DNA of 64,000 nt, from IMG/VR virus record IMGVR_UViG_3300022928_000019, positions 1 through 64,000 of that record; one strand, 5' to 3'. Under the pieces are notes generated by a model. The model made no database searches, was not told the origin of the DNA, and saw nothing but the letters and a program-made list of their open reading frames with translations. The translations under genes were made by a program, and so were the position numbers. Shown here piece by piece: positions 23,854 through 56,786 of the stretch. The first letter of the stretch is position 1. Every line of letters begins with the position of its first letter. The DNA is from a virus.

Positions 23854-24894
23854 TCACTTATGGACATAGCCTTCGGTTGTCTTGGTATTTGAGTGACCGA
23901 CTGCCTTACCAATATCCTCTAGGCTTAATCCTGCTTTATCTAATCTAGTAATACAAGAGTGCCTAAGGCAGTGAAACGACCTGCCATATATGTCTAATCT
24001 CTCGCACAACCTTTTGAAGTAAACACTAGGCTTAGATCTAGTCTTTGGGTTGGTTATAATATCATGCCATTCAGGAAAGCAGTATACCTTATCTTCAACA
24101 TCTATCTCACTGAGTACTTGTTGTATTATGCCCGAGCCAAAGTACTGACTAGTAGTATCAATTGATACCAACTTGTCTCGCTTTATCGTCCATACCACCA
24201 TCTTCTTTCTATTCCTAATGCTGTCCCACTCAAGGGATGCAATGTCTGCTAGCCTAAGACCTGTCCAATAGGATATGGCAGTAGCCTGTCTAAAGAAATA
24301 TGGTGCATTCTTGATTATTTTATCTACCTCTTTCTTGAGGAATATATCTCTTTCCTTGGGGGTCTTTTGTTTGTGGGTAAGCTTGGAATTGTCTATCTTA
24401 AGAAACATAAGTGGGTTAGTCATTACATACATCTTTATCTGAGCAAAGTTCCATAGCTGACTCATGGTTGATTTACGTAATGCCCTCATGCTTAATGAGG
24501 TTCCATCATTCTTATTCAAATAGTCGTAGATATCTTTTTCAGATATACTAGCAATTGGCTTATCAATACATTTGTAAGCCTTGCCGAACTGCTCGTATAT
24601 CGATGTCATCGTGTAGATGGAATTCTGTGATGTTGCACTAAACTCCATGTGCTTCTTGTATTCCTCGACAACATCCCAGAACTTCATGGACTTACTGCCT
24701 ACGATCTTTGTTATAACATCAGCAGATAAAACGCCTAGCTTACCAGCATCCTCAAGCTCTGATATCCTAAGATCTTTCACGAGCTTGTTTGCTTCTTTGC
24801 GATCCCTTGTCCTCAGGTGGGTGGATCTCAATGTGCCATTGATATCCTTGTACTTGACTGAGTAGTCACCGCTCTTGTTTTTCACTATTTTCAT
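23854..24894 (-). CDS. Tyrosine recombinase (second integrase)
   Basis: The protein is 346 residues, with an N-terminal AP2-like arm-binding region and a core-binding domain (about 65-170). The catalytic domain has Arg in TGLRLADIASLEW, HCLRHSC with the HxxR pair, VGHSN and the Tyr in GYVHK at the very end. All canonical residues are present. It should cut and rejoin DNA through a 3' phosphotyrosine. No tRNA-like att core was seen beside it, unlike the recombinase at 53.0 kb. It may resolve multimers, or it may be an integrase from a second element. A spacing variant of the GTAACC element lies upstream. Confidence 0.85.
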   Translation of the reverse strand: MKIVKNKSGDYSVKYKDINGTLRSTHLRTRDRKEANKLVKDLRISELEDAGKLGVLSADVITKIVGSKSMKFWDVVEEYKKHMEFSATSQNSIYTMTSIYEQFGKAYKCIDKPIASISEKDIYDYLNKNDGTSLSMRALRKSTMSQLWNFAQIKMYVMTNPLMFLKIDNSKLTHKQKTPKERDIFLKKEVDKIIKNAPYFFRQATAISYWTGLRLADIASLEWDSIRNRKKMVVWTIKRDKLVSIDTTSQYFGSGIIQQVLSEIDVEDKVYCFPEWHDIITNPKTRSKPSVYFKRLCERLDIYGRSFHCLRHSCITRLDKAGLSLEDIGKAVGHSNTKTTEGYVHK

Positions 24895-24897
24895 TTT

Positions 24898-24924
24898 GTT
24901 ACACTCCTATGGGTTAGGTTACAC
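24898..24924 (-). promoter_or_regulatory. Variant GTAACC element with longer spacing
   Basis: On the minus strand GTAACCTAAC is followed 20 bases later (start to start) by GTAAC and then by the recombinase ATG. The usual distance is 17. The helicase stop codon overlaps it. An AGGAG in the spacer gives a normal ribosome site, so this could be a decayed copy. Confidence 0.3.
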
Positions 24925-27168
24925 ATGAGCAAGCTCTAAACTCTTAGCTTGCTTAGCGAGTTTGTCTCGCAGTTCCATCCACTCGAGTTCCATCTCTATC
25001 TCACTCTTAGTCTCAATGAGATCCTCATCAAAACTAAGGAAGTGGTCAGCCATTATATCATCAACACTACCATCTTGGTAATCCACTGGCACATACTCGC
25101 CTAGTATGCACATGGTGGCAGCGTCTCGCTTGTCTGCTAGCTTGTCAAACATGGACTCCTCAATTGTATCTTTGCTAAGAAGCACAGTAATATCTGCATC
25201 CCTCTTAGAGTTTACTCGGTACACCCTACCTAGGGCTTGATGGAATGACCCATAGCTCCATTCGAATGATCCGATTATCATATTGGGGCAATCAGGAAAG
25301 CTATGTCCAACTGCACACTTAGCACCCATGAGCAGTACTTGTGTATCATGCCTCCTGAATTGATTAGCCTCCCGAGCATGGTCTGATGCATTTGAGTCTA
25401 TCCTAGAGAACGAAACATCTGCGTCCTCTAGTCTGTTGGACAGTTCATCTGTCTGACCTATGCATGATGATATATGAATGACCTGCTCACCTTGTGATAT
25501 GTACTTATGTACAAGCTCGAGCGTGGTGATAAGCTTGGGATTGAAGTTAGATGACACCACTCCTTCATTAAATGATCTACCTGCAGGATCTGCACATATA
25601 CCACGTAGCCTCTGCAACTGAACTCCATAACATGTCTTTGGATCCTTGTATGGTATATTCTTAATATCTAGGTTGTGGGCATATAGTTTCTTTTGGGCAT
25701 ATCCCAATGGCACTCTGAGTGTCTTTACATTACACTTAACTACATCAGGGTTACATTGCTCCTTGGATATGAAAGCAACGAGTGACTTAAGGACTTTGAG
25801 TAATCTCTGAGCCTGACTGATAATTGGACTAGTCTTAATACATGAGGATCCATTTCCCCTGATAGCCTCCTCGGTGTAGTCTCTCTCACGTGTAAGGAAT
25901 GTGCTACAAAATGTAGCCTCATCCTCTAGTGCATATGGCCACCTAGGATTACTCTTCTTGCCATGAAACCAATTCGGTACTGCGAGCCATCCTAGTATAG
26001 GGAATATGTTCGGTAGGATATTAGGTATGGGTGTAGCAGTTAAGGCATACCTATACTTAGGTTGAAGTCTAATGATTGCCCGAGTTATCGCTGAGTCTAG
26101 TGACTGCATGATGTGAGCCTCATCGAGCATAACACAATCAAAGTGGTGTCCTGCTATGCTAGATAGACTAGGCTTCAGCACACAAGTGAATCCATTGTGA
26201 GTTTGCCCGATGCCACAATGATATTCGTTATCTACCGATGGAGGGTTATCGGGATCCCATGGTGCATTGTAGCCAAGGTCTCGCATCTTTGACCTAAGCA
26301 ATCTCTCACGATCCTGTGCTGCCCATGATCTAGGTATAGTTTCTATACCACCATTGAGGAAGAATGCAGTCGGGTAGGTTATATAAACACCTGTCGGCAG
26401 TGTGCCATCACTACGAAGATGTTTGTAATAGTCATCAGCAGAGAAGATTGTACGCACTTTTGTGTCGGGTGAGAACTTAGCCATCTCTGCGATCCATTGA
26501 GCGGGGTCATACTTCTTCAGCCTACCATCGGAACTTTTGACAGTACCCTTGGGTGCTACCAAGAGAGTACGCCTAGCATTCTTTAGGGAGTTCAATGCGA
26601 TTGCCATGCATGTCTTACCTGTACCTACATCTCCACACACTAGTGCCTGATCAACACATGCCACTCGAGCAATGTAATCAAGCTGACCAGGATAGAAGGT
26701 AAAGTCATTTATTTCTTCTAGTACTCTGCATTTATCCTTAATCCGATTGAATGCCTTGGGTCTAAGTTCAGCAACAGTCTTAACCTCGGGCATCTCAAAG
26801 AAGTCCCACATCTGAATAGATGTAAGTTCGTAATCTCCAATAGGATTATCCCGAAAAACGAACTGCCTCTTTCTGTCATCAGTGAATGCATATCCGGCAT
26901 CAACGCCCGATCTCTCGATGTCATGATCTACCACATAGGTTCGACCACTCTTCTCGGTGTGCATCTTCTTCTTGGACACTGGTCTAGTGTATGAATACTT
27001 GAGTCTCTTAAAGGTGTAATCTTTACCTGCAGTTACGCGAGGTAACAATGTCTTGGTCTTAGAGCTAGGTGTTTGCTTAGCAGTCAAGACCTTCAACTCA
27101 TCCACCATCCCGACCAACTCATATGGGGTCAGAGGGAGTAGGGGAGGAGAGGTATACTTATACTTCAT
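24919..27168 (-). CDS. SNF2-type superfamily 2 helicase
   Basis: The protein is 749 residues. Walker A GDVGTGKT lies at about residue 180, DEAH in CVMLDEAHIM and motif III ALTATP. The C-terminal helicase lobe has motif V-like CAVGHSF and motif VI QALGRVYR. Residues 1-150 form an accessory N-terminal region. Phage SNF2-like proteins translocate on duplex DNA during replication, recombination or promoter clearance. The ATG overlaps the stop of the upstream gene (ATGA), so the two are translated together. No nuclease domain is fused. Confidence 0.85.
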   Translation of the reverse strand: MKYKYTSPPLLPLTPYELVGMVDELKVLTAKQTPSSKTKTLLPRVTAGKDYTFKRLKYSYTRPVSKKKMHTEKSGRTYVVDHDIERSGVDAGYAFTDDRKRQFVFRDNPIGDYELTSIQMWDFFEMPEVKTVAELRPKAFNRIKDKCRVLEEINDFTFYPGQLDYIARVACVDQALVCGDVGTGKTCMAIALNSLKNARRTLLVAPKGTVKSSDGRLKKYDPAQWIAEMAKFSPDTKVRTIFSADDYYKHLRSDGTLPTGVYITYPTAFFLNGGIETIPRSWAAQDRERLLRSKMRDLGYNAPWDPDNPPSVDNEYHCGIGQTHNGFTCVLKPSLSSIAGHHFDCVMLDEAHIMQSLDSAITRAIIRLQPKYRYALTATPIPNILPNIFPILGWLAVPNWFHGKKSNPRWPYALEDEATFCSTFLTRERDYTEEAIRGNGSSCIKTSPIISQAQRLLKVLKSLVAFISKEQCNPDVVKCNVKTLRVPLGYAQKKLYAHNLDIKNIPYKDPKTCYGVQLQRLRGICADPAGRSFNEGVVSSNFNPKLITTLELVHKYISQGEQVIHISSCIGQTDELSNRLEDADVSFSRIDSNASDHAREANQFRRHDTQVLLMGAKCAVGHSFPDCPNMIIGSFEWSYGSFHQALGRVYRVNSKRDADITVLLSKDTIEESMFDKLADKRDAATMCILGEYVPVDYQDGSVDDIMADHFLSFDEDLIETKSEIEMELEWMELRDKLAKQAKSLELAHV

Positions 27169-28049
27169 GCTGCCTCCTTATGTTTCTTTACTTTGTATAT
27201 GATCTTAGGATACCGACCTTGGGCGTCAGGTATCGGTGGGATAAGAATATCTTGCCCCTGTTTGTTTACGAAGTAGTCGCTATGCAAGGTACGCAAGTGA
27301 CCGACTCTGCCATTTTTAAGCGGACTAGATTTCTTCTGTCCATTTTTTTCTTGGTATTCCCTAATAACTTTAGGCAAGTAGACCACGCGATAGAGTGATT
27401 GCTTTGAGTCTATCTTGTACTTCTTCTTGATCTGCTTCATTACCTTCTTGTTGCTCCGATCAATTCTACTTGGAGCAAAGTATGGTATAGCCGAGTAGTT
27501 GATTACCTTGAGTGCCATAAGCACAGTCTCCATTACTTTAATGGCATTATCATCATAGCCTGCGAACTCTATGAACTCTGAGATCTTCTTTCTGAGTTCA
27601 CCCTCGCCACACTCACTCGGTAGGTTGCCTCGGATATGCCCGGATGGATGCTTGATTGTGTATATGATTACATCATCAAACCATACAGGTATTCCTGTTG
27701 CATCTGGCCCCCACTGCATTGACAGCTTGCAGAGTAATTCCTTTGCTGCTTCATCCTCCAATTTGCATGCATATTCCCAAGCATGTTGAATTAAGTTTGC
27801 CTGGTGTCCCTTGCTAATAACTATCTCATGGTATTCCTTATCCTCGAACTTAATAGTCAAACTTTCGCTAGGCCACTTTGACTTAGAAAAGTTATTTGTA
27901 ACATGGGTTGCTTGCATGGCATCTGTCACGCTTTTATCTACGAGCATAGTTTGCCCATAGTGGTTATTCCATACTTCATTGATAATACCTACTGCAGTGG
28001 TTGAATCATCATACTCTGCACCTTCACTTCCGAATATTCTCTCAGTCAT
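27165..28049 (-). CDS. Conserved-looking phage protein of unknown function
   Basis: The protein is 294 residues and soluble. The C-terminal segment KNGRVGHLRTLHSDYF, followed by an IPPIP turn and YKVKK, recurs in hypothetical phage proteins near replication genes (recollection). No catalytic signature is evident. An AGGA-type ribosome site precedes the ATG. It is the first gene after a strongly structured RNA candidate and is coupled to the helicase, so its expression may be controlled by that leader. Confidence 0.55.
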   Translation of the reverse strand: MTERIFGSEGAEYDDSTTAVGIINEVWNNHYGQTMLVDKSVTDAMQATHVTNNFSKSKWPSESLTIKFEDKEYHEIVISKGHQANLIQHAWEYACKLEDEAAKELLCKLSMQWGPDATGIPVWFDDVIIYTIKHPSGHIRGNLPSECGEGELRKKISEFIEFAGYDDNAIKVMETVLMALKVINYSAIPYFAPSRIDRSNKKVMKQIKKKYKIDSKQSLYRVVYLPKVIREYQEKNGQKKSSPLKNGRVGHLRTLHSDYFVNKQGQDILIPPIPDAQGRYPKIIYKVKKHKEAA

Positions 28050-28085: not shown

Positions 28086-28252
28086 TCAGTCGGGGGCAGG
28101 TTTTTGGTCATCACGTGGATTTGTTGCCCACGCTCGCATTATCCCTTGCGACCTTGCCCGAAGGCTTCTCCACCTTAGATGCACTGAATATAGATGCACC
28201 TAAGGCTCAAAATGGAGGCATTAAAGATCGCTCCCTAAGAACCCCCGACTGA
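28086..28252 (-). ncRNA. Structured RNA candidate, possible leader of helicase operon
   Basis: An 11-bp perfect stem (28086-28096 with 28242-28252) closes a 167-nt region. Inside are an 11-bp hairpin (28173-28183 with 28195-28205), a C(UUCG)G tetraloop hairpin (28156-28165), and a branch with CGTGG/CCACG (28114-28132) and GGTC/GACC arms. Two details favour the minus strand: the A-C mismatch of the plus strand becomes a G-U pair, and the tetraloop reads UUCG. A U-rich stretch follows, then the start codon of the next gene 36 bases on. No known RNA family was recognised. Confidence 0.6.
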
Positions 28253-28268
28253 TATGTCACCTATGATA

Positions 28269-28517
28269 CTAGGTTACTTTCTTGTGAAGAGCGTAACCCA
28301 TGCAATTCTTATTCGAGTCCCACACTAGAAACATTTGCCCCTGCTGTAGTGCGACAGTCGTCAGAGGTATTAACTCCTGAGGAAGATGTAGACTATTAAA
28401 CCTTAGTGCTATGTCCTCGGCTAAATCACCATCTTGCTTGACGGACTCTGTTTCAAACACCTCATATGCTTTATCAATATTAAACGGAGGTGGTTTAAAT
28501 TTTTCTAGCCTACTCAT
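28269..28517 (-). CDS. Small protein, unknown
   Basis: The 82-residue soluble protein has an ATG that overlaps the upstream stop (ATGA). It contains HLPQELIPLTTVALQQGQMF and a C-terminal LHKK. No motif was recognised. It is co-translated with the acidic protein upstream and ends 17 bases before the structured RNA candidate begins. Confidence 0.5.
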   Translation of the reverse strand: MSRLEKFKPPPFNIDKAYEVFETESVKQDGDLAEDIALRFNSLHLPQELIPLTTVALQQGQMFLVWDSNKNCMGYALHKKVT

Positions 28518-33485: not shown

Positions 33486-33616
33486 TTATTTTCCTCCTTT
33501 AGTAGTTCTGTGTATCTTCTGATGAAGTGCCTAGCTGCGTAGTACTCCTCTGTGGTAAGTTCATTCTTTCTCCACATAGATTCAGCTTCAGCTTCTAGTT
33601 TCTCTTGTATATTCAT
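33482..33616 (-). CDS. Small helical protein
   Basis: The 44-residue protein MNIQEKLEAEAESMWRKNEL continues into YYAARHFIRRYTELLKEENK. It is amphipathic helix throughout. The stop overlaps the next ATG. It is the first gene downstream of the dyad-like element at 33655. Confidence 0.5.
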   Translation of the reverse strand: MNIQEKLEAEAESMWRKNELTTEEYYAARHFIRRYTELLKEENK

Positions 33617-33654
33617 ATATTTGATCCTTCCTATCATCGCCCCCAACCGTAGTA

Positions 33655-33676
33655 GCAACCTAGAGAACTAGGTTAC
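33655..33676 (-). promoter_or_regulatory. 22-bp element, nearly palindromic copy
   Basis: On the minus strand the left half is GTAACCTA and the right half is TAGGTTGC. The first following ATG (33616) is 38 bases away, the second longest leader among the copies. It lies between two small gene clusters. As a near-palindrome it could also serve as terminator or operator. Confidence 0.5.
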
Positions 33677-33693
33677 TACTAGGGGGGTGTTTG

Positions 33694-39529: not shown

Positions 39530-39574
39530 AAAAAGTAAAGCCCATGCCCAAGGAATAAGCCTCGGACATGGGCT
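39530..39574 (-). terminator. Rho-independent terminator (minus strand)
   Basis: Arms AGCCCATG (39539-39546) and CATGGGCT (39567-39574) extend inward with partial pairing (CCGAGG with CCTTGG). On the minus strand the stem is followed by TTTACTTTTT. It would stop transcription coming from the noncoding block or from the gene at 40242. Confidence 0.65.
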
Positions 39575-47014: not shown

Positions 47015-47237
47015 TGTTTCTTAGAAAACTAGGTTTCACTCTGGGAATACCTGTTCCTATTCTTTCGCCATTTTTATCCCAACCGCGGATTTGATCTTTT
47101 GCCCAGAATTTATCTACTGCTTGATCAATCTCTAACCTTATTTTGTGAAACTCCCCGGGCGAGAAATAAAGGGGCAGGGGAATTTCCCCCGCCCCATATG
47201 ACCCTACCCCAAGGTCATGAAGTAGATTCTTGTCCAC
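46998..47237 (-). CDS. Small protein, unknown
   Basis: The 79-residue protein is Gly/Pro-containing at the N-terminus (VGSYGAGEIPLPLYFSPGEF). A helix (HKIRLEIDQAVDKFWAKDQ) and a basic end follow. It overlaps both neighbours. No motif was recognised. Confidence 0.45.
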   Translation of the reverse strand: MDKNLLHDLGVGSYGAGEIPLPLYFSPGEFHKIRLEIDQAVDKFWAKDQIRGWDKNGERIGTGIPRVKPSFLRNNEYSI

Positions 47238-47454
47238 CTTCGATTACCTGAAGCTTACTTTTAAGCTCTAGGTTTTCTACCTTGGTGGCAATTGCCTCAA
47301 TTTTCTCCAAAATAGACTCAAGTCTTTGATACGCCTCGCTTCGAGACATGGCATTATTTCCAACAACATTAAGCTTTTGCTCCAAAGTGAGTGAGTCCCA
47401 CTTTTTAGCTGCTTCTTCTTCTGCAGTTTGTTCTTCTGTTTTTTCTTCGCTCAT
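47215..47454 (-). CDS. Small coiled-coil protein
   Basis: The 79-residue protein has a Glu-rich start (EEKTEEQTAEEEAAKKWDSL) and a coiled coil to the end. The ATG overlaps the upstream stop (ATGA). It may bridge replication proteins. No family was recognised. Confidence 0.5.
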   Translation of the reverse strand: MSEEKTEEQTAEEEAAKKWDSLTLEQKLNVVGNNAMSRSEAYQRLESILEKIEAIATKVENLELKSKLQVIEGGQESTS

Positions 47455-47639: not shown

Positions 47640-48040
47640 CAGTAGGGTACATCCTCGTCATCTTCAGGGACATTAACTGCTACCTTAGCAGGAGCCTTAG
47701 GTGCAGCAGCATTATCATCCTTATTACCAGCTGCAAAGCCGAAGCTCATTGGTTTCACAACGAACTTAACTTTACGCTGTGGTTTACCATCCTTGCCCTC
47801 AAACTTGTCCTGTTTGATGTCGGCATCTAGATAAACAGCATCGCCCTTTTTGGCATACTTAGCGATGTAGTCACCAGCCTGTCTCCATGCCTCGAAATCA
47901 TAAAAGGAAGCAGTCCGCTCACCTTTAACTGTTTCGTTAATGGCTAGGCTGAAGGTACACAGGGTAGCATCGCCAATCGTTTTAGTTGTAGGATCGGCTG
48001 TTAACCGTCCCATGAATTGTGCTTTGGAGTAAGAACTCAT
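47639..48040 (-). CDS. ssb: Single-stranded DNA-binding protein
   Basis: The 133-residue protein has an OB fold typical of SSB: FMGRLTADPTTKTIGDATLC, a WRQAGDYIAKYAKKGDAVYL core and KVKFVVKPMSF. A Lys/Ala/Pro linker and an acidic tail DDEDVPY follow, close to the DDDIPF tip that recruits host replication proteins. It protects single strands during phage replication. The ATG overlaps the helicase stop (ATGA). Confidence 0.9.
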   Translation of the reverse strand: MSSYSKAQFMGRLTADPTTKTIGDATLCTFSLAINETVKGERTASFYDFEAWRQAGDYIAKYAKKGDAVYLDADIKQDKFEGKDGKPQRKVKFVVKPMSFGFAAGNKDDNAAAPKAPAKVAVNVPEDDEDVPY

Positions 48041-49308
48041 GATAATTTGGGTCGTGGTGTGAATTTTTGGATTTTTGGTTTAAAGCAGACCTCGACGTCA
48101 CCACACCGTCCTTGGCGCTGCTTACTTATTGAAATTACTGTTTGATCGGGGTCATCATTCTGCCTCCATAGAAGAGCAACCACATCTGCATCCTGCTCAA
48201 TGGCTCCCGACTCCCGAATATCGGAAAGCCTAGGCTTACGATTTAATTCATCTGCACCCCGATTTAGCTGACTGAGCATTATAATCGGAATATTAAGTTC
48301 CATTGCTAGTGCCTTCATGGATCCTGCGATCTCGGCAACCTGTTGTTCACGAGGCATGCGAGGATCAATAGCTGACATCTTTTGCGCATAATCTACTACG
48401 ATAAAATCCAATCCTTTACGCGCTAGCTTCCTAGCTTTGGATCTTACTTGGGCTGAGTTGATCATACCTCTGTCATCGATCCAAAAATTCTTAGACTTCA
48501 TCCACATCATAGCTTCCTGATACTTGTTTAAGTCCTCAGGTCTTGCTGTCTTGTCTATTATGTATCCTAATGGAACTTCAGATACATTAGATATGAGTCT
48601 TTGCATGACTGCTTCTGCCTTCATCTCTAAACTAAAGAATAAAACATTCTTGCTGTTTTTAAGTGCAGATAATGCTAGTTCGCATCCAAATGCAGTCTTA
48701 CCTACCGAAGTTCGTGCTGCCAAAACTACAAGGTCACTTGGCTGCCAACCAAATGTCATGCGATCTAATTCGCCTATACCTGAAGGGATCCCCGACATAC
48801 CATCAACTTCCATTCGTTTTTTTATGTTTACCCACATAGAATCCACGACATCGGAAGCTGATCGAGTCGGATCCTTAGTTTCGAGACTCATGCTAGTTAA
48901 GTCACGATCAGCTGCCTCTATAATAGAGTCAGTGGGAACTTGCTCATCGATGAGGTCACTGACCTCAAGAACGATTTTACGGAGTTGCCTACGCCTAAAG
49001 TCGTCTTTGCACTTCTCAAAATATCTATTAAATCCTGTGCTAGTGTCGCAAGAATGGATGATGTCAGTCACCCACGACCGCTCCTCGGAATCAAATTGAA
49101 GCATAATATCCACATCGATTACTTCACTAGTTTTGTCGCAGTCCTGAACAGCCAGCCAAAGTTGTTGGCAGTGAGGGTCAGAAAACCACTCCGTGGAAAC
49201 ACCAGCATCAATGCAGTCATCAATCAAATTAGCATCTTTCAACATGGTGCTAATAAGACCCCTCTCAGCTTGGTAATCAGTTTTTATCTCTGTTGTCGCA
49301 AAATTCAT
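48037..49308 (-). CDS. dnaB: DnaB-like replicative DNA helicase
   Basis: The protein is 423 residues, with an N-terminal DnaB domain (about 10-110) and a linker. The RecA-fold domain has Walker A ARTSVGKT (about 200), FFSLEM, DFIVVDYAQ as Walker B, and MLSQLNRG. SDIRESGAIEQDADVV and RQGRCGDV follow. It should encircle the lagging strand at the fork. No primase or polymerase is encoded in the window, so it probably works with the host replisome. The upstream gene may load it. Confidence 0.9.
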   Translation of the reverse strand: MNFATTEIKTDYQAERGLISTMLKDANLIDDCIDAGVSTEWFSDPHCQQLWLAVQDCDKTSEVIDVDIMLQFDSEERSWVTDIIHSCDTSTGFNRYFEKCKDDFRRRQLRKIVLEVSDLIDEQVPTDSIIEAADRDLTSMSLETKDPTRSASDVVDSMWVNIKKRMEVDGMSGIPSGIGELDRMTFGWQPSDLVVLAARTSVGKTAFGCELALSALKNSKNVLFFSLEMKAEAVMQRLISNVSEVPLGYIIDKTARPEDLNKYQEAMMWMKSKNFWIDDRGMINSAQVRSKARKLARKGLDFIVVDYAQKMSAIDPRMPREQQVAEIAGSMKALAMELNIPIIMLSQLNRGADELNRKPRLSDIRESGAIEQDADVVALLWRQNDDPDQTVISISKQRQGRCGDVEVCFKPKIQKFTPRPKLS

Positions 49309-53041: not shown

Positions 53042-53968
53042 CTAGCCTACAGGCCGAATCTTGAAAAAGTTTACTGCATCTTTTTTCTCGGCTACAGAAC
53101 TGCAGTAATGTCGGTGAAAAGTTTTATAATTTGAATGACCTGTGTACCTCATAGTCTGCTCCATACCCATGGTAAAGTATGCATAGGTGCAGAAGGTATG
53201 ACGCATCGCATCATGGGCAATTCTACCGAAATATCTGCGCCTTGCGATTCGGTAGGCATTGTAGGTGAATTTTTCCCTTATCCCATATTTCCTAACCCAT
53301 GATATTAGATTATCAGGAAGATCATGGAGTACCCGAGTCGTCCGAAGCTTAGAATTTGCACCGAGGATATAGAGCTTCTTACCTTGCAAATCTAAATCCT
53401 TACTTTCGATTTTCAAGGACTCGTATGGTCTGACACCTGCGAAAAGTTGTATGGCTATTCTGCCTTTAAACTTATCGGGCATTTTATTAAGTAGATCCTT
53501 AGCCTGGTTAACTGACAGAATCTCAATGGGGTTCTCATCTTGTAAAACCTCAAGGATTTTAACATTGGTAAACTTTCTTTCGGGGCAGAAGCCTTGGTCT
53601 CCACACCAATTCAGAAAGCCACAAACATCATTTCTGTGACCGATCCTAGACCATCTCCCATCGAAACTTTCAGCAAACCGTTTGACATCTTGCCTAGTTA
53701 TTTGGTCAACAGTTTTACAATCTGTCCAATTTAGGAAGCTAGTAAGCCTAGTTTTATAGGTCATCAAGCTTGCTTTACGGAGGTTCCTTTGACCGCATGC
53801 CTTCATATACATAAGGTATGCATCAATAATGCTCACATTATTGCATAACCCATTAGCCTCTTGAGGCTTATGAGTGGTGGGAGATGGCAGATTCGAACTG
53901 CCGACCTCATGCGTGTCATGCATGCTTGGAACCCCCTTTTTGAATAGGTTCAAGAAGGGAATTTTCAT
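53042..53968 (-). CDS. int: Tyrosine integrase with attP inside its 5' end
   Basis: The 308-residue frame opens at an ATG three bases after a 22-bp element. Residues of about 15-32 (MHDTHEVGSSNLPSPT) are the translation of the tRNA-like attP. A SAM-like core-binding domain (about 45-135) follows. The catalytic residues come next: Arg in FAGVRPYESL, HDAMRHTF, TGHSNY and the Tyr in HRHYCSS. All active-site residues are present. Recombination within the core would separate the promoter and first codons from the rest of the gene. A GTG at 53836 (residue 45) could start a shorter protein in the prophage. Confidence 0.85.
   Translation of the reverse strand: MKIPFLNLFKKGVPSMHDTHEVGSSNLPSPTTHKPQEANGLCNNVSIIDAYLMYMKACGQRNLRKASLMTYKTRLTSFLNWTDCKTVDQITRQDVKRFAESFDGRWSRIGHRNDVCGFLNWCGDQGFCPERKFTNVKILEVLQDENPIEILSVNQAKDLLNKMPDKFKGRIAIQLFAGVRPYESLKIESKDLDLQGKKLYILGANSKLRTTRVLHDLPDNLISWVRKYGIREKFTYNAYRIARRRYFGRIAHDAMRHTFCTYAYFTMGMEQTMRYTGHSNYKTFHRHYCSSVAEKKDAVNFFKIRPVG
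53875..53924 (-). other. attP: attP core: 3' half of tRNA-Val(GAC)
   Basis: Read on the minus strand: anticodon stem CATGC/GCATG with loop ATGACAC (anticodon GAC), variable loop AGGTC and T arm GGCAG-TTCGAAT-CTGCC. The 3' acceptor strand ATCTCCC, discriminator A and CCA follow. The D arm and 5' acceptor are absent, so this is not a working tRNA. It is the identity block that would rebuild a host tRNA-Val on integration. Confidence 0.8.
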
Positions 53969-54624: not shown

Positions 54625-55270
54625 TACCGAGGAGTTAGCTACTGCGATGCGACGTCATGACGGCAACTATGCCGATGCAGCTAAAGAGTTAGGCATGACT
54701 GAGGGGAATATGCGAGAGCGTGTTCGTAAGGATCCAAGGGTTAAAAGTATTTGGCAAGTAGCCGGGAACCAAGGACACGAGCCTTCCGATGTTGAACTTA
54801 TGGTCAGGAAAGACCCTCCACCTGCGCCAGACCACAAAGAGTTTCTAGGAGCATTAAAGGAAAATGGTAAGGAAGAGTTCATGGGTGAACTCGAGACAAT
54901 GCTTAGGAACCCTGAGAACATTGAGAAGTTAAAAGTATTTCAGAACCTGAAGGGTGGCATCGGGCAACTAATGTCTAATGCCTTGGATGTAACTCAGAAA
55001 ATAGCCATTCGACAGAATATGGCTTTATTTGAAGTAGGGGAAAAGCTACGAGACGATATTTCTAGTGGGATATTGGATCCCGAGGAGGAGATATTAAGGA
55101 CTAAGCTATTTCTGCAGACGACCGAGCAACAAGGTAAATTTTACGACAGGTTACTTCATGGTTTAGACTTGATGATTAAAATGTCAGAAAGGGATAAAGT
55201 TAAAGAAAAGAAAAAGCCTGGATTCAGACCTTTGAAGGAGATGCAAAGTGCCGAGGCTAAAGAAGATTGA
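54602..55270 (+). CDS. terS: Terminase small subunit
   Basis: The 222-residue protein has an N-terminal HTH (YSTEELATAMRRHDGNYADA, AAKELGMTEGNMRERVRK). A helical oligomerisation middle and a basic C-terminus (KVKEKKKPGFRPLK) follow. Length and location directly before the large subunit support the call. It should recognise the packaging site and load the motor. It overlaps the large subunit start by 23 bases. Confidence 0.75.
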   Translation: MPRRKKYSTEELATAMRRHDGNYADAAKELGMTEGNMRERVRKDPRVKSIWQVAGNQGHEPSDVELMVRKDPPPAPDHKEFLGALKENGKEEFMGELETMLRNPENIEKLKVFQNLKGGIGQLMSNALDVTQKIAIRQNMALFEVGEKLRDDISSGILDPEEEILRTKLFLQTTEQQGKFYDRLLHGLDLMIKMSERDKVKEKKKPGFRPLKEMQSAEAKED

Positions 55271-56786
55271 TCCTAAAGCTTTCCTCGATGCCTTTACCGA
55301 GGATGAAGAGGTTGGAGCAGAAGAAGAAATATGGTCTCCTTCTTTGTCGGGATCCCAAAGTGAACTTTTTAATTCTACATCAAAGTACATTTTAGCGTAT
55401 GGAGAACGTGCTTCGGGTAAGACTTTTGTATTGGGTGGGCATAAGCTTGTTAGGCATTGCTACGAAAACTTTAATGCCTTGGCACTAATTATAGTTGGAG
55501 TTAAGTCACAAGCCACACAGGGTGGAGTTTGGCACAAATTGCAGACCGAAGTACTACCCGAGTGGAAAGAGGGTTTAGGGATAGACTATACAGACGAAAA
55601 GATGGACTTACAGAAAGCTCCATATATTGATATTCAGAATCGATATGGTGGTTGGTCGAGGATAAGTCTTATGTCTGCTCCATTCGGGACAATGCTTATT
55701 GACCGGATCAAAGGTTTTGAACCTAGTTATGTCTTTGTCGATGAGCTTACTAACCTAGATTCTCCCTCTTACTTCGAGGCTGTGGTTCAACAACTTGGTC
55801 GTAGGCAAGGCATTGAGGGAATCCAACAGTATTGCGCTGCATGCAACCCTGACGGGCCAAGTCATTGGGTGTATAAAAGATTCTTTGAATCACCGCTAGA
55901 CGATGAAGGTAATTATAATCACGATTATCATGTAGTACATGTAAAGATAGCAGAGAACGAAAAAAACCTTCCTGAGGGTTATTACTCGCGAGTAATGCAG
56001 GCTGTTTCAAATGACCCAATCGAGGCGAAAAGGATGCTAGAGGGTGAATGGATAGATAGACCATCGGGCGATGCTTTATTAGCTCCCTACTTTTCGAAAC
56101 CTCTTCATGTTAAGGGAGATGCAAAATCAGGCATAATCCCTAACCCTAGTTTCCCTATAATAATTGGATATGACCCAGGCTCAGTAAATAATGCTATGGT
56201 GTTTATGCAGTGCCTAATTGGTAAGGAAAAAAGCATGTGGATAGTGTTCGATGAATTGATTTTTATTAATCAAAAGATTCCTTACACGAAAATTGTTCCG
56301 TATTTGTACCGGAAGATGAAATACTGGAATAATTTGGTGGGTACAGACTTCAAATACATCCACATCTCAGACAACTCTGCATTCAATCAGTATCGTGCAA
56401 AGACAGGCTCTTATGACGTGAAGGACTTTGAGGATATATCTAAGGAGAAATGTGAAGTGTTCGGCTTGGAGCCTATTCGAATGAAGGCAGCACCAAAGTT
56501 TTCGGGGTCTGTTGAGGGCCGAGTACGGCTACTAATATCAAAGTTAGTTCAGGAGGAAATTGTATTTTCTGCACAATGCACGGATGTAATCAAGAGTGTA
56601 AGGAATCTTTCTTCTGATAAGAGTAAAGATGGCAAATACGATCCTAGCTTGGCTATGAAGCCAAAGAGAAGTGTATACATTCATTCATTTGATGCGCTGA
56701 CCTATCCCATTATGTTTTATGATGTTAAGACAACTATGCCTACGCCCAATGTAAGGACATCCTCAATAATAGAAATAAATGCTTGA
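55248..56786 (+). CDS. terL: Terminase large subunit
   Basis: The start is GTG at 55248 (512 residues). The ATPase has Walker A GERASGKT (about 52-59) and Walker B SYVFVDEL (about 160). The coupling region CAACNPDGPSHWVYKRF follows. The nuclease domain begins at IIGYDPGSVNNAMV with the first Asp, followed by WIVFDEL, and later Asp residues at HISDNS. It packages DNA into the prohead and cuts it. A 22-bp element follows the gene. Confidence 0.9.
   Translation: MPRLKKIDPKAFLDAFTEDEEVGAEEEIWSPSLSGSQSELFNSTSKYILAYGERASGKTFVLGGHKLVRHCYENFNALALIIVGVKSQATQGGVWHKLQTEVLPEWKEGLGIDYTDEKMDLQKAPYIDIQNRYGGWSRISLMSAPFGTMLIDRIKGFEPSYVFVDELTNLDSPSYFEAVVQQLGRRQGIEGIQQYCAACNPDGPSHWVYKRFFESPLDDEGNYNHDYHVVHVKIAENEKNLPEGYYSRVMQAVSNDPIEAKRMLEGEWIDRPSGDALLAPYFSKPLHVKGDAKSGIIPNPSFPIIIGYDPGSVNNAMVFMQCLIGKEKSMWIVFDELIFINQKIPYTKIVPYLYRKMKYWNNLVGTDFKYIHISDNSAFNQYRAKTGSYDVKDFEDISKEKCEVFGLEPIRMKAAPKFSGSVEGRVRLLISKLVQEEIVFSAQCTDVIKSVRNLSSDKSKDGKYDPSLAMKPKRSVYIHSFDALTYPIMFYDVKTTMPTPNVRTSSIIEINA

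Follow-up and report, generated by a model that had tools for sequence, protein, structure and literature searches.

Does the gap at positions 28,086-28,252 of the viral DNA analyzed here (a stretch of 64,000 nucleotides, hereafter the window, taken from the 72,883-base virus record IMGVR_UViG_3300022928_000019) encode a structured RNA on its minus strand, and, if so, what might such an RNA do in the midst of a run of protein-coding genes? The original prediction had placed in this gap a 167-nt RNA with an 11-bp closing stem, an 11-bp inner hairpin and a C(UUCG)G hairpin, whose fold it did not recognize. It had named comparison with shuffled sequences and covariation among homologues as ways of checking the proposal, and had offered a riboswitch-like leader, a small phage RNA or a packaging-type RNA as possible readings.

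The fold and its constituent helices

Inspection of the window copy bears out the coordinates and structural elements of the original prediction. The arms of the closing stem are complementary at 11 of 11 positions, the inner hairpin (28173-28183 with 28195-28205) is complementary at 10 of 11 with one G-U pair on the minus strand, and ORFs inside the stretch do not exceed 45 aa. The C(UUCG)G hairpin is present in the sequence and is supported by the alignment, although it is not formed in the minimum free energy (MFE) structure of the single sequence. Further, the MFE of the minus strand is -70.9 kcal/mol as against a mean of -49.5 for shuffled sequences (z -5.07), with none of the 200 shuffles being as stable; the plus strand folds more weakly (-60.6, z -4.08).

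In a stability scan of the window (160-nt segments in 40-nt steps, 3192 segments), the RNA site is among the more stable places without being the top one, and is outranked by 47161(-), 36401(-) and 23001(+). Hence, folding energy alone would not single out the RNA, and homologues were sought instead of relying on energy. These other stable stretches are the principal argument for a chance structure or a coding artefact, a reading of vanishingly small probability, which is already refuted by the covariation in six distinct sequences described below. On the coding side, the sole frame that most homologues keep open through the conserved core is interrupted by a stop codon in G015, at +17 from the core start. 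A conserved peptide, considered on account of a QGIMRAWATNPRDDQKP-like frame in several homologues, was likewise rejected on the basis of this stop codon and the compensatory changes in the stems.

The top segment of the scan falls at 47080-47330 (-), where a GGGGCGGGGGAAATTCCCCTGCCCC hairpin lies near the junction of two 79-aa ORFs. Elsewhere in the window, an intergenic gap at 33486-33693 (-) carries a long near-perfect hairpin (CUAGUAGUAACCUAG/CUAGGUUGCUACUACG within C/G-rich arms; fold z -3.16), possibly an operator or terminator, and a 15-bp terminator-like hairpin at 39539-39574 (-) is followed by TTACTTTTTA, with several AACTACGT-like repeats just upstream.

The RNA spans about 167-178 nt across the homologues. 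Its closing stem, P1, leads to a junction with P2, which branches into a variable arm (P2b) and a UNNG-tetraloop hairpin (P2c), and with P3, an irregular hairpin in which the internal loops and the loop of 7 nt hardly vary (Table 1). The P2b arm is capped by a sequence-variable hairpin, which in the window copy is the 11-bp inner hairpin with its single G-U pair. The P2c loop is UUCG, UGCG or UGAG and its closing pair is always C-G, while the P3b loop reads CANNAAA, and CGGCAAA in G015.

Table 1. Coordinates in the window of the RNA, its parts and the adjoining genes, with the basis of each assignment
Feature	Positions	Strand	Basis
Whole structured RNA, P1 to P1'	28086..28252	-	fold z -5.07, homologues, covariation
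P1 closing stem, 5' arm	28242..28252	-	11/11 complementary
P1 closing stem, 3' arm	28086..28096	-	complementarity, covariation
P2, 5' arm	28226..28231	-	covariation
P2, 3' arm	28148..28153	-	covariation
P2b arm (base 28214-28217 with 28168-28171)	28168..28217	-	complementarity, covariation
P2c hairpin, GCC(UUCG)GGC	28156..28165	-	stem covaries
Conserved core: P3a AGG/CCU, two internal loops, P3b hairpin and loop	28097..28147	-	conservation
P3b hairpin, CGUGG/CCACG	28114..28132	-	stem covaries; two invariant G-U pairs flank the stem
82-aa protein, upstream gene (stop codon 16 nt before the RNA)	28269..28517	-	coordinates
294-aa protein of unknown function, first downstream gene	27165..28049	-	homologues in G005, G006, G009
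SNF2-type helicase, second downstream gene	24919..27168	-	PF00176; homologues 64-65%
Tyrosine integrase, final gene in the same-strand run that follows the RNA	23854..24894	-	PF00589

Homologues, covariation and the conserved core

Searches with the DnaB-like helicase of the window (48037-49308) recovered 13 loci, 11 at 60-76% identity and two at 100%. Four of the records found in this way (G003, G005, G006 and G009) also encode the SNF2-type helicase at 64-65% identity, and all four possess a clear homologue of the RNA in the gap that precedes the 294-aa homologue or the helicase; together with the window they constitute clade A. Patterns from the shared core uncovered the RNA in a second clade, clade B, which includes G014, G015 and G016. 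A scan of 84,980 species genomes with core patterns returned three stretches, of which L058 alone is a homologue of the RNA, the remaining two (L057 and L059) having the appearance of chance matches. When a covariance model was run against 18 records, 10 proved to have exactly one copy apiece (136-164 bits) and eight to have none. Five of the latter (G004, G007, G008, G011 and G012) end, as reckoned from the DnaB coordinates, less than 20 kb downstream of DnaB and would thus stop short of the RNA site, and the other three (G002, G010 and G013) are 5-9 kb fragments; being fragments, these records speak neither for nor against the presence of the RNA. Several copies are identical (G001 and the window, G005 and G006, G015 and G016, G014 and L058), so that six distinct sequences remain; they fall into two clades, and between these the integrases share only 37-38% identity.

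No match was obtained by blastn with the window copy against 50,697 phage records, with G014 and G009 against phages or with G003 against plasmids. Relatives sought via the 294-aa protein or the helicase alone yielded the same virus only, and exact 16- and 18-base patterns of the window copy recovered that virus again, any further matches being due to chance and lying in unrelated surroundings. When viral contigs were scanned by way of the integrase, no RNA-bearing records were added to the known ones, and the RNA model found no copy in 300 genomes from the phylum of the L058 metagenome-assembled genome (MAG) other than in that MAG itself. L058 is contig CALIKS010000021.1, binned in an 'uncultured archaeon' MAG; the genes in the 8,000 bases examined are viral, so that an error of binning may lie behind the archaeal host assignment. 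Bacterial hosts are favoured by the occurrence of DnaB in this virus group. In G014 (L053/L054) the helicase gene is split across both contig ends, and no shared terminal repeat was found; in view of this split, the record, of 79,741 bases, probably represents a full circular map.

Covariation was assessed on three alignments. In the alignment fitted to the model (A5), which leans towards that model, 96.7% of 180 cells (30 pairs in six distinct sequences) are standard pairs, and 19 of the 30 pairs show changes on both sides (33 such cells). None of 500 shuffles reaches any of these figures, and pairing drops to 34-52% when the 3' partners are slid by 1-3 columns. The unfitted MAFFT alignment (A4) is 93.5% paired, with 17 of 26 pairs changed on both sides, and RNAalifold returns the same architecture from it, 25 of the 39 predicted pairs being compensated. 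The third alignment was made by hand and covers five helices; 137 of its 138 positions are paired, a figure reached only by the true assignment of 3' to 5' arms (one of 720).

Considering the individual helices, all five inner base pairs of P1 (5' arm 28242-28246), which are modelled in all homologues, have changed on both sides, as have five of the six pairs of P2, where 100% of cells are paired. P2b has support in most sequences, with 83% of its cells paired, but is ambiguous in G014 because the check on arm order put one of its arms at a nearer duplicate. As judged from these alignments, P1, P2, P2c and P3b have firm support from covariation, whereas P3a (AGG/CCU) is invariant, so that covariation cannot speak to it. 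An extra helix at columns 115-116/147-148 shows one compensatory change, common to G003 and G009. A kink-turn in P3 was considered in view of neighbouring G-A/A-G positions, but the extra helix is better supported and no kink-turn is claimed. With just six distinct sequences in two clades, several of the compensatory changes may be single events. The covariation nevertheless provides strong support for the original prediction in its central point, indicating that the stretch is a real structured RNA on the minus strand.

The conservation of the 51-nt core is of a different order from that of its surroundings: outside the 5-bp P3b stem, 31 of 41 positions are invariant in the six sequences, as compared with 2 of the 10 that make up the P3b stem and, in the rest of the RNA, 12 of 110. 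Between the window copy and G014, whose integrases share about 38% of their residues, a single one of these 41 positions differs, and within P3b 6 of 10 positions differ, all of them compensated. Additionally, G014 and L058 show no difference over the 237 nt made up of the RNA and the gaps on either side of it, while their divergence amounts to 6% in the adjoining DpdA gene and 4% in the integrase gene. This retention of the core in the face of diverging integrases and adjoining genes is taken here to mark a site of recognition, whether the partner is a protein, a small molecule or the RNA itself, and not a mere stem. It also bears on the notion of a passive mRNA element, i.e., a processing site or exonuclease barrier between the two halves of the operon. 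Such an element would accord with a very stable fold amid a same-strand gene run; however, a barrier has no need of a nearly invariant unpaired core maintained across viruses with 38%-identical integrases, and this explanation is unlikely.

Gene neighbourhood and comparison with known RNA classes

In all six distinct genomes the RNA fills an intercistronic gap on the same strand, its distance from the preceding stop codon being 11-29 nt and from the following start codon 19-71 nt. The gene order in clade A is an 82-92-aa gene, the RNA, a 290-310-aa gene, the helicase and the integrase; in G003 the counterpart of the 294-aa gene is missing at this place and the RNA is retained. Where the original prediction placed the RNA upstream of the helicase operon, the next gene in the window is that of the 294-aa protein, followed by the helicase and then the integrase. 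The clade A gene run also includes a C5-cytosine methyltransferase (PF00145 in the window). In clade B the order is DpdA (PF23859), the RNA and the integrase, the DpdA gene lying directly upstream of the RNA (L053 3436-4284, L055 2826-3710).

Wherever this can be checked, the RNA lies on the same strand upstream of a tyrosine integrase, directly in clade B and via other genes in clade A, where the coordinates place the two about 2.6-3.5 kb apart. An integrase was found in seven of the seven RNA-bearing virus records searched (E <= 8e-69) and also in the MAG contig L058. As all RNA-bearing viruses belong to one family, the association may be a matter of shared descent. A packaging-type RNA, such as that of phi29, is unsupported by this context, the RNA being about 27 kb from the terminase gene (55248-56786) and beside the helicase and integrase genes.

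The proximity of the integrase raises the alternative of a DNA element, namely an attP site or a single-stranded DNA hairpin used by the integrase. In its favour, the clade B RNA lies directly upstream of the integrase gene with GTTACAC/GTGTAAC sites on both of its sides, and the strand also folds as single-stranded DNA (z -4.26). However, the distance between the two in clade A, the use of G-U pairs on this strand, two of them invariant, and the C-G-closed UNNG tetraloop, an RNA feature, all weigh against a DNA element, and by eye the flanking sites are not seen around the window copy. On balance, this alternative is very improbable. The GTTACAC/GTGTAAC sites in clade B (L053 4287, 4499 and 4514; L055 2598, 2613 and 2817) include an inverted pair just before the integrase start, and they could possibly be integrase arm sites or a repressor operator.

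As to known classes, no Rfam 15 family matches the window at its gathering score, and the five homologue loci examined (four distinct RNAs) have no match at E <= 1, in agreement with the earlier failure to recognize the fold. The best sub-threshold match of the window copy is the C/D-box sRNA sR36 (RF01124; 19.6 bits, E 0.0064), far below the gathering score of 55 and confined to the window copy. An archaeal C/D box sRNA was rejected, as the D-box-like CUGA of the window copy lies in P1 and is not conserved in the homologues. A retron ncRNA was similarly rejected, given that the neighbouring genes encode a helicase, a methyltransferase and an integrase or have no match, with no reverse transcriptase among them.

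The bridge RNA of IS110 elements (PMC11208160) is likewise a structured RNA beside a recombinase gene. It was rejected as an identification, the neighbour in the present case being a tyrosine integrase (PF00589) and not an IS110-type recombinase; further, the 11-mers that the RNA shares with its own genome lie scattered. These matches number 10 in the window copy, 7 in G009, 9 in G014 and 4 in G003, compared with 2-5, 1-6, 2-9 and 0-8, respectively, in five shuffles of each. The window copy and G009 exceed their shuffles, partly via overlapping 11-mers at one place, and one of the 30 matches is near the integrase gene, in G014, where it lies 0.5 kb beyond the gene end. The large phage-borne RNAs, GOLLD among them (PMC2864571, PMC12286853), are similarly orphan structured RNAs from environmental comparative genomics; unlike them, the present RNA is about 170 nt long, has a different architecture and matches no Rfam family. 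A literature search at the level of summary records found no description of this RNA.

Candidate modes of action

The RNA shares several features with riboswitches and protein-binding leaders: it is intergenic, lies on the strand of the next gene, and combines a closing stem and junction with compensated stems and an aptamer-like core of invariant unpaired positions. It departs from them in lacking a conserved terminator or RBS-sequestering arm, in the variability of the first downstream gene and in having no Rfam match. Inspection of the homologue flanks revealed no conserved expression platform, be it a terminator or an RBS-sequestering helix, and in clade A the next RBS is in an A/C-rich spacer outside the fold. 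The U-rich tail noted after the closing stem is indeed seen in the window copy, but is absent from the other five distinct homologues; since it is not conserved, the RNA is not an intrinsic terminator, and its site is not among the 15 terminator-like sites called. A riboswitch-like leader is a candidate reading, though one devoid of a conserved expression platform.

Among the readings considered, the most likely, to which we assign a rough probability of 0.45, is that of an element acting in cis, which belongs to the transcript with the integrase as its last gene and binds a ligand or a protein. A cis control element appears to be the best fit because a sealed domain with an invariant, receptor-like P3 precedes the integrase segment. 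The RNA would be transcribed within the integrase-ending operon, of whose transcript it is presumably a part because there is almost no room for a promoter of its own and no terminator. A protein or small molecule would bind to P3 as its receptor, and the amount of downstream transcript made or kept, for the integrase at the least, would depend on whether P3 is occupied, either via read-through by RNA polymerase or via altered processing or translation of the mRNA. In addition to the covariation and the conservation of the core, this reading draws on the same-strand intercistronic context, the integrase in all records searched and the persistence of the RNA in G003; the lack of a conserved expression platform counts against it.

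The put RNAs of phage HK022, which let RNA polymerase read on (antitermination), offer a parallel for such an output. Like them, the present RNA is structured and phage-borne and lies within an operon, where it could act on the polymerase with no terminator or RBS nearby. However, put sites are short paired stem-loops near the operon start, whereas here a three-domain junction RNA is situated near the operon end; as for sequence, the two were compared through Rfam only.

The first downstream gene varies, coding for the 290-310-aa protein, the helicase or the integrase, and this would fit equally well with an RNA that acts in trans. Such a stand-alone RNA, or part of an RNP, would be cut from the operon transcript and stabilized by its closing stem, with P3 binding a host or viral protein. 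Consistent with this are the long closing stem, which seals both ends and is kept by compensation, the absence of coupling to a terminator or RBS, and an unpaired core far more constant than the integrase. On the other hand, there is no recognizable promoter or terminator belonging to the RNA, with just 11-29 nt separating it from the upstream stop codon. Nor does the genome carrying the RNA show a surplus of complementary sequence that would point to an mRNA target: non-self complements of 10 nt number 1 in the window copy, 10 in G009, 4 in G014 and 8 in G003, as against 0-15 for shuffled cores. The cis-acting element is placed ahead, with the trans-acting RNA, a tentative but serious contender, close behind. 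A small phage RNA, as named in the original prediction, is likewise a candidate reading.

The comparative data give strong support to a new RNA family, although its general kind, the structured viral RNA, is already known. To our knowledge, few structured RNAs of temperate viruses outside the model phages have covariation support. The present one lies outside all described families and preserves a near-invariant core, within an integrase gene run, across viruses with 38%-identical integrases. Its defined sequence, secondary structure and covariance model permit direct tests of a ligand, a protein partner and an effect on integrase expression. A more far-reaching and rather doubtful proposal is that the RNA represents a viral regulatory class of its own. 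It would be an aptamer or RNP platform of three domains, reserved for the integration module of temperate viruses, and would sense a cellular signal (a metabolite, a host protein or RNA polymerase) and so gate integrase expression and the choice between lysis and lysogeny; in the boldest form of the proposal, the RNA would work with the integrase itself.

The window also encodes a second tyrosine-recombinase-like gene at 53042-53968 (-), which matches PF02899 above the cut-off and PF00589 weakly.
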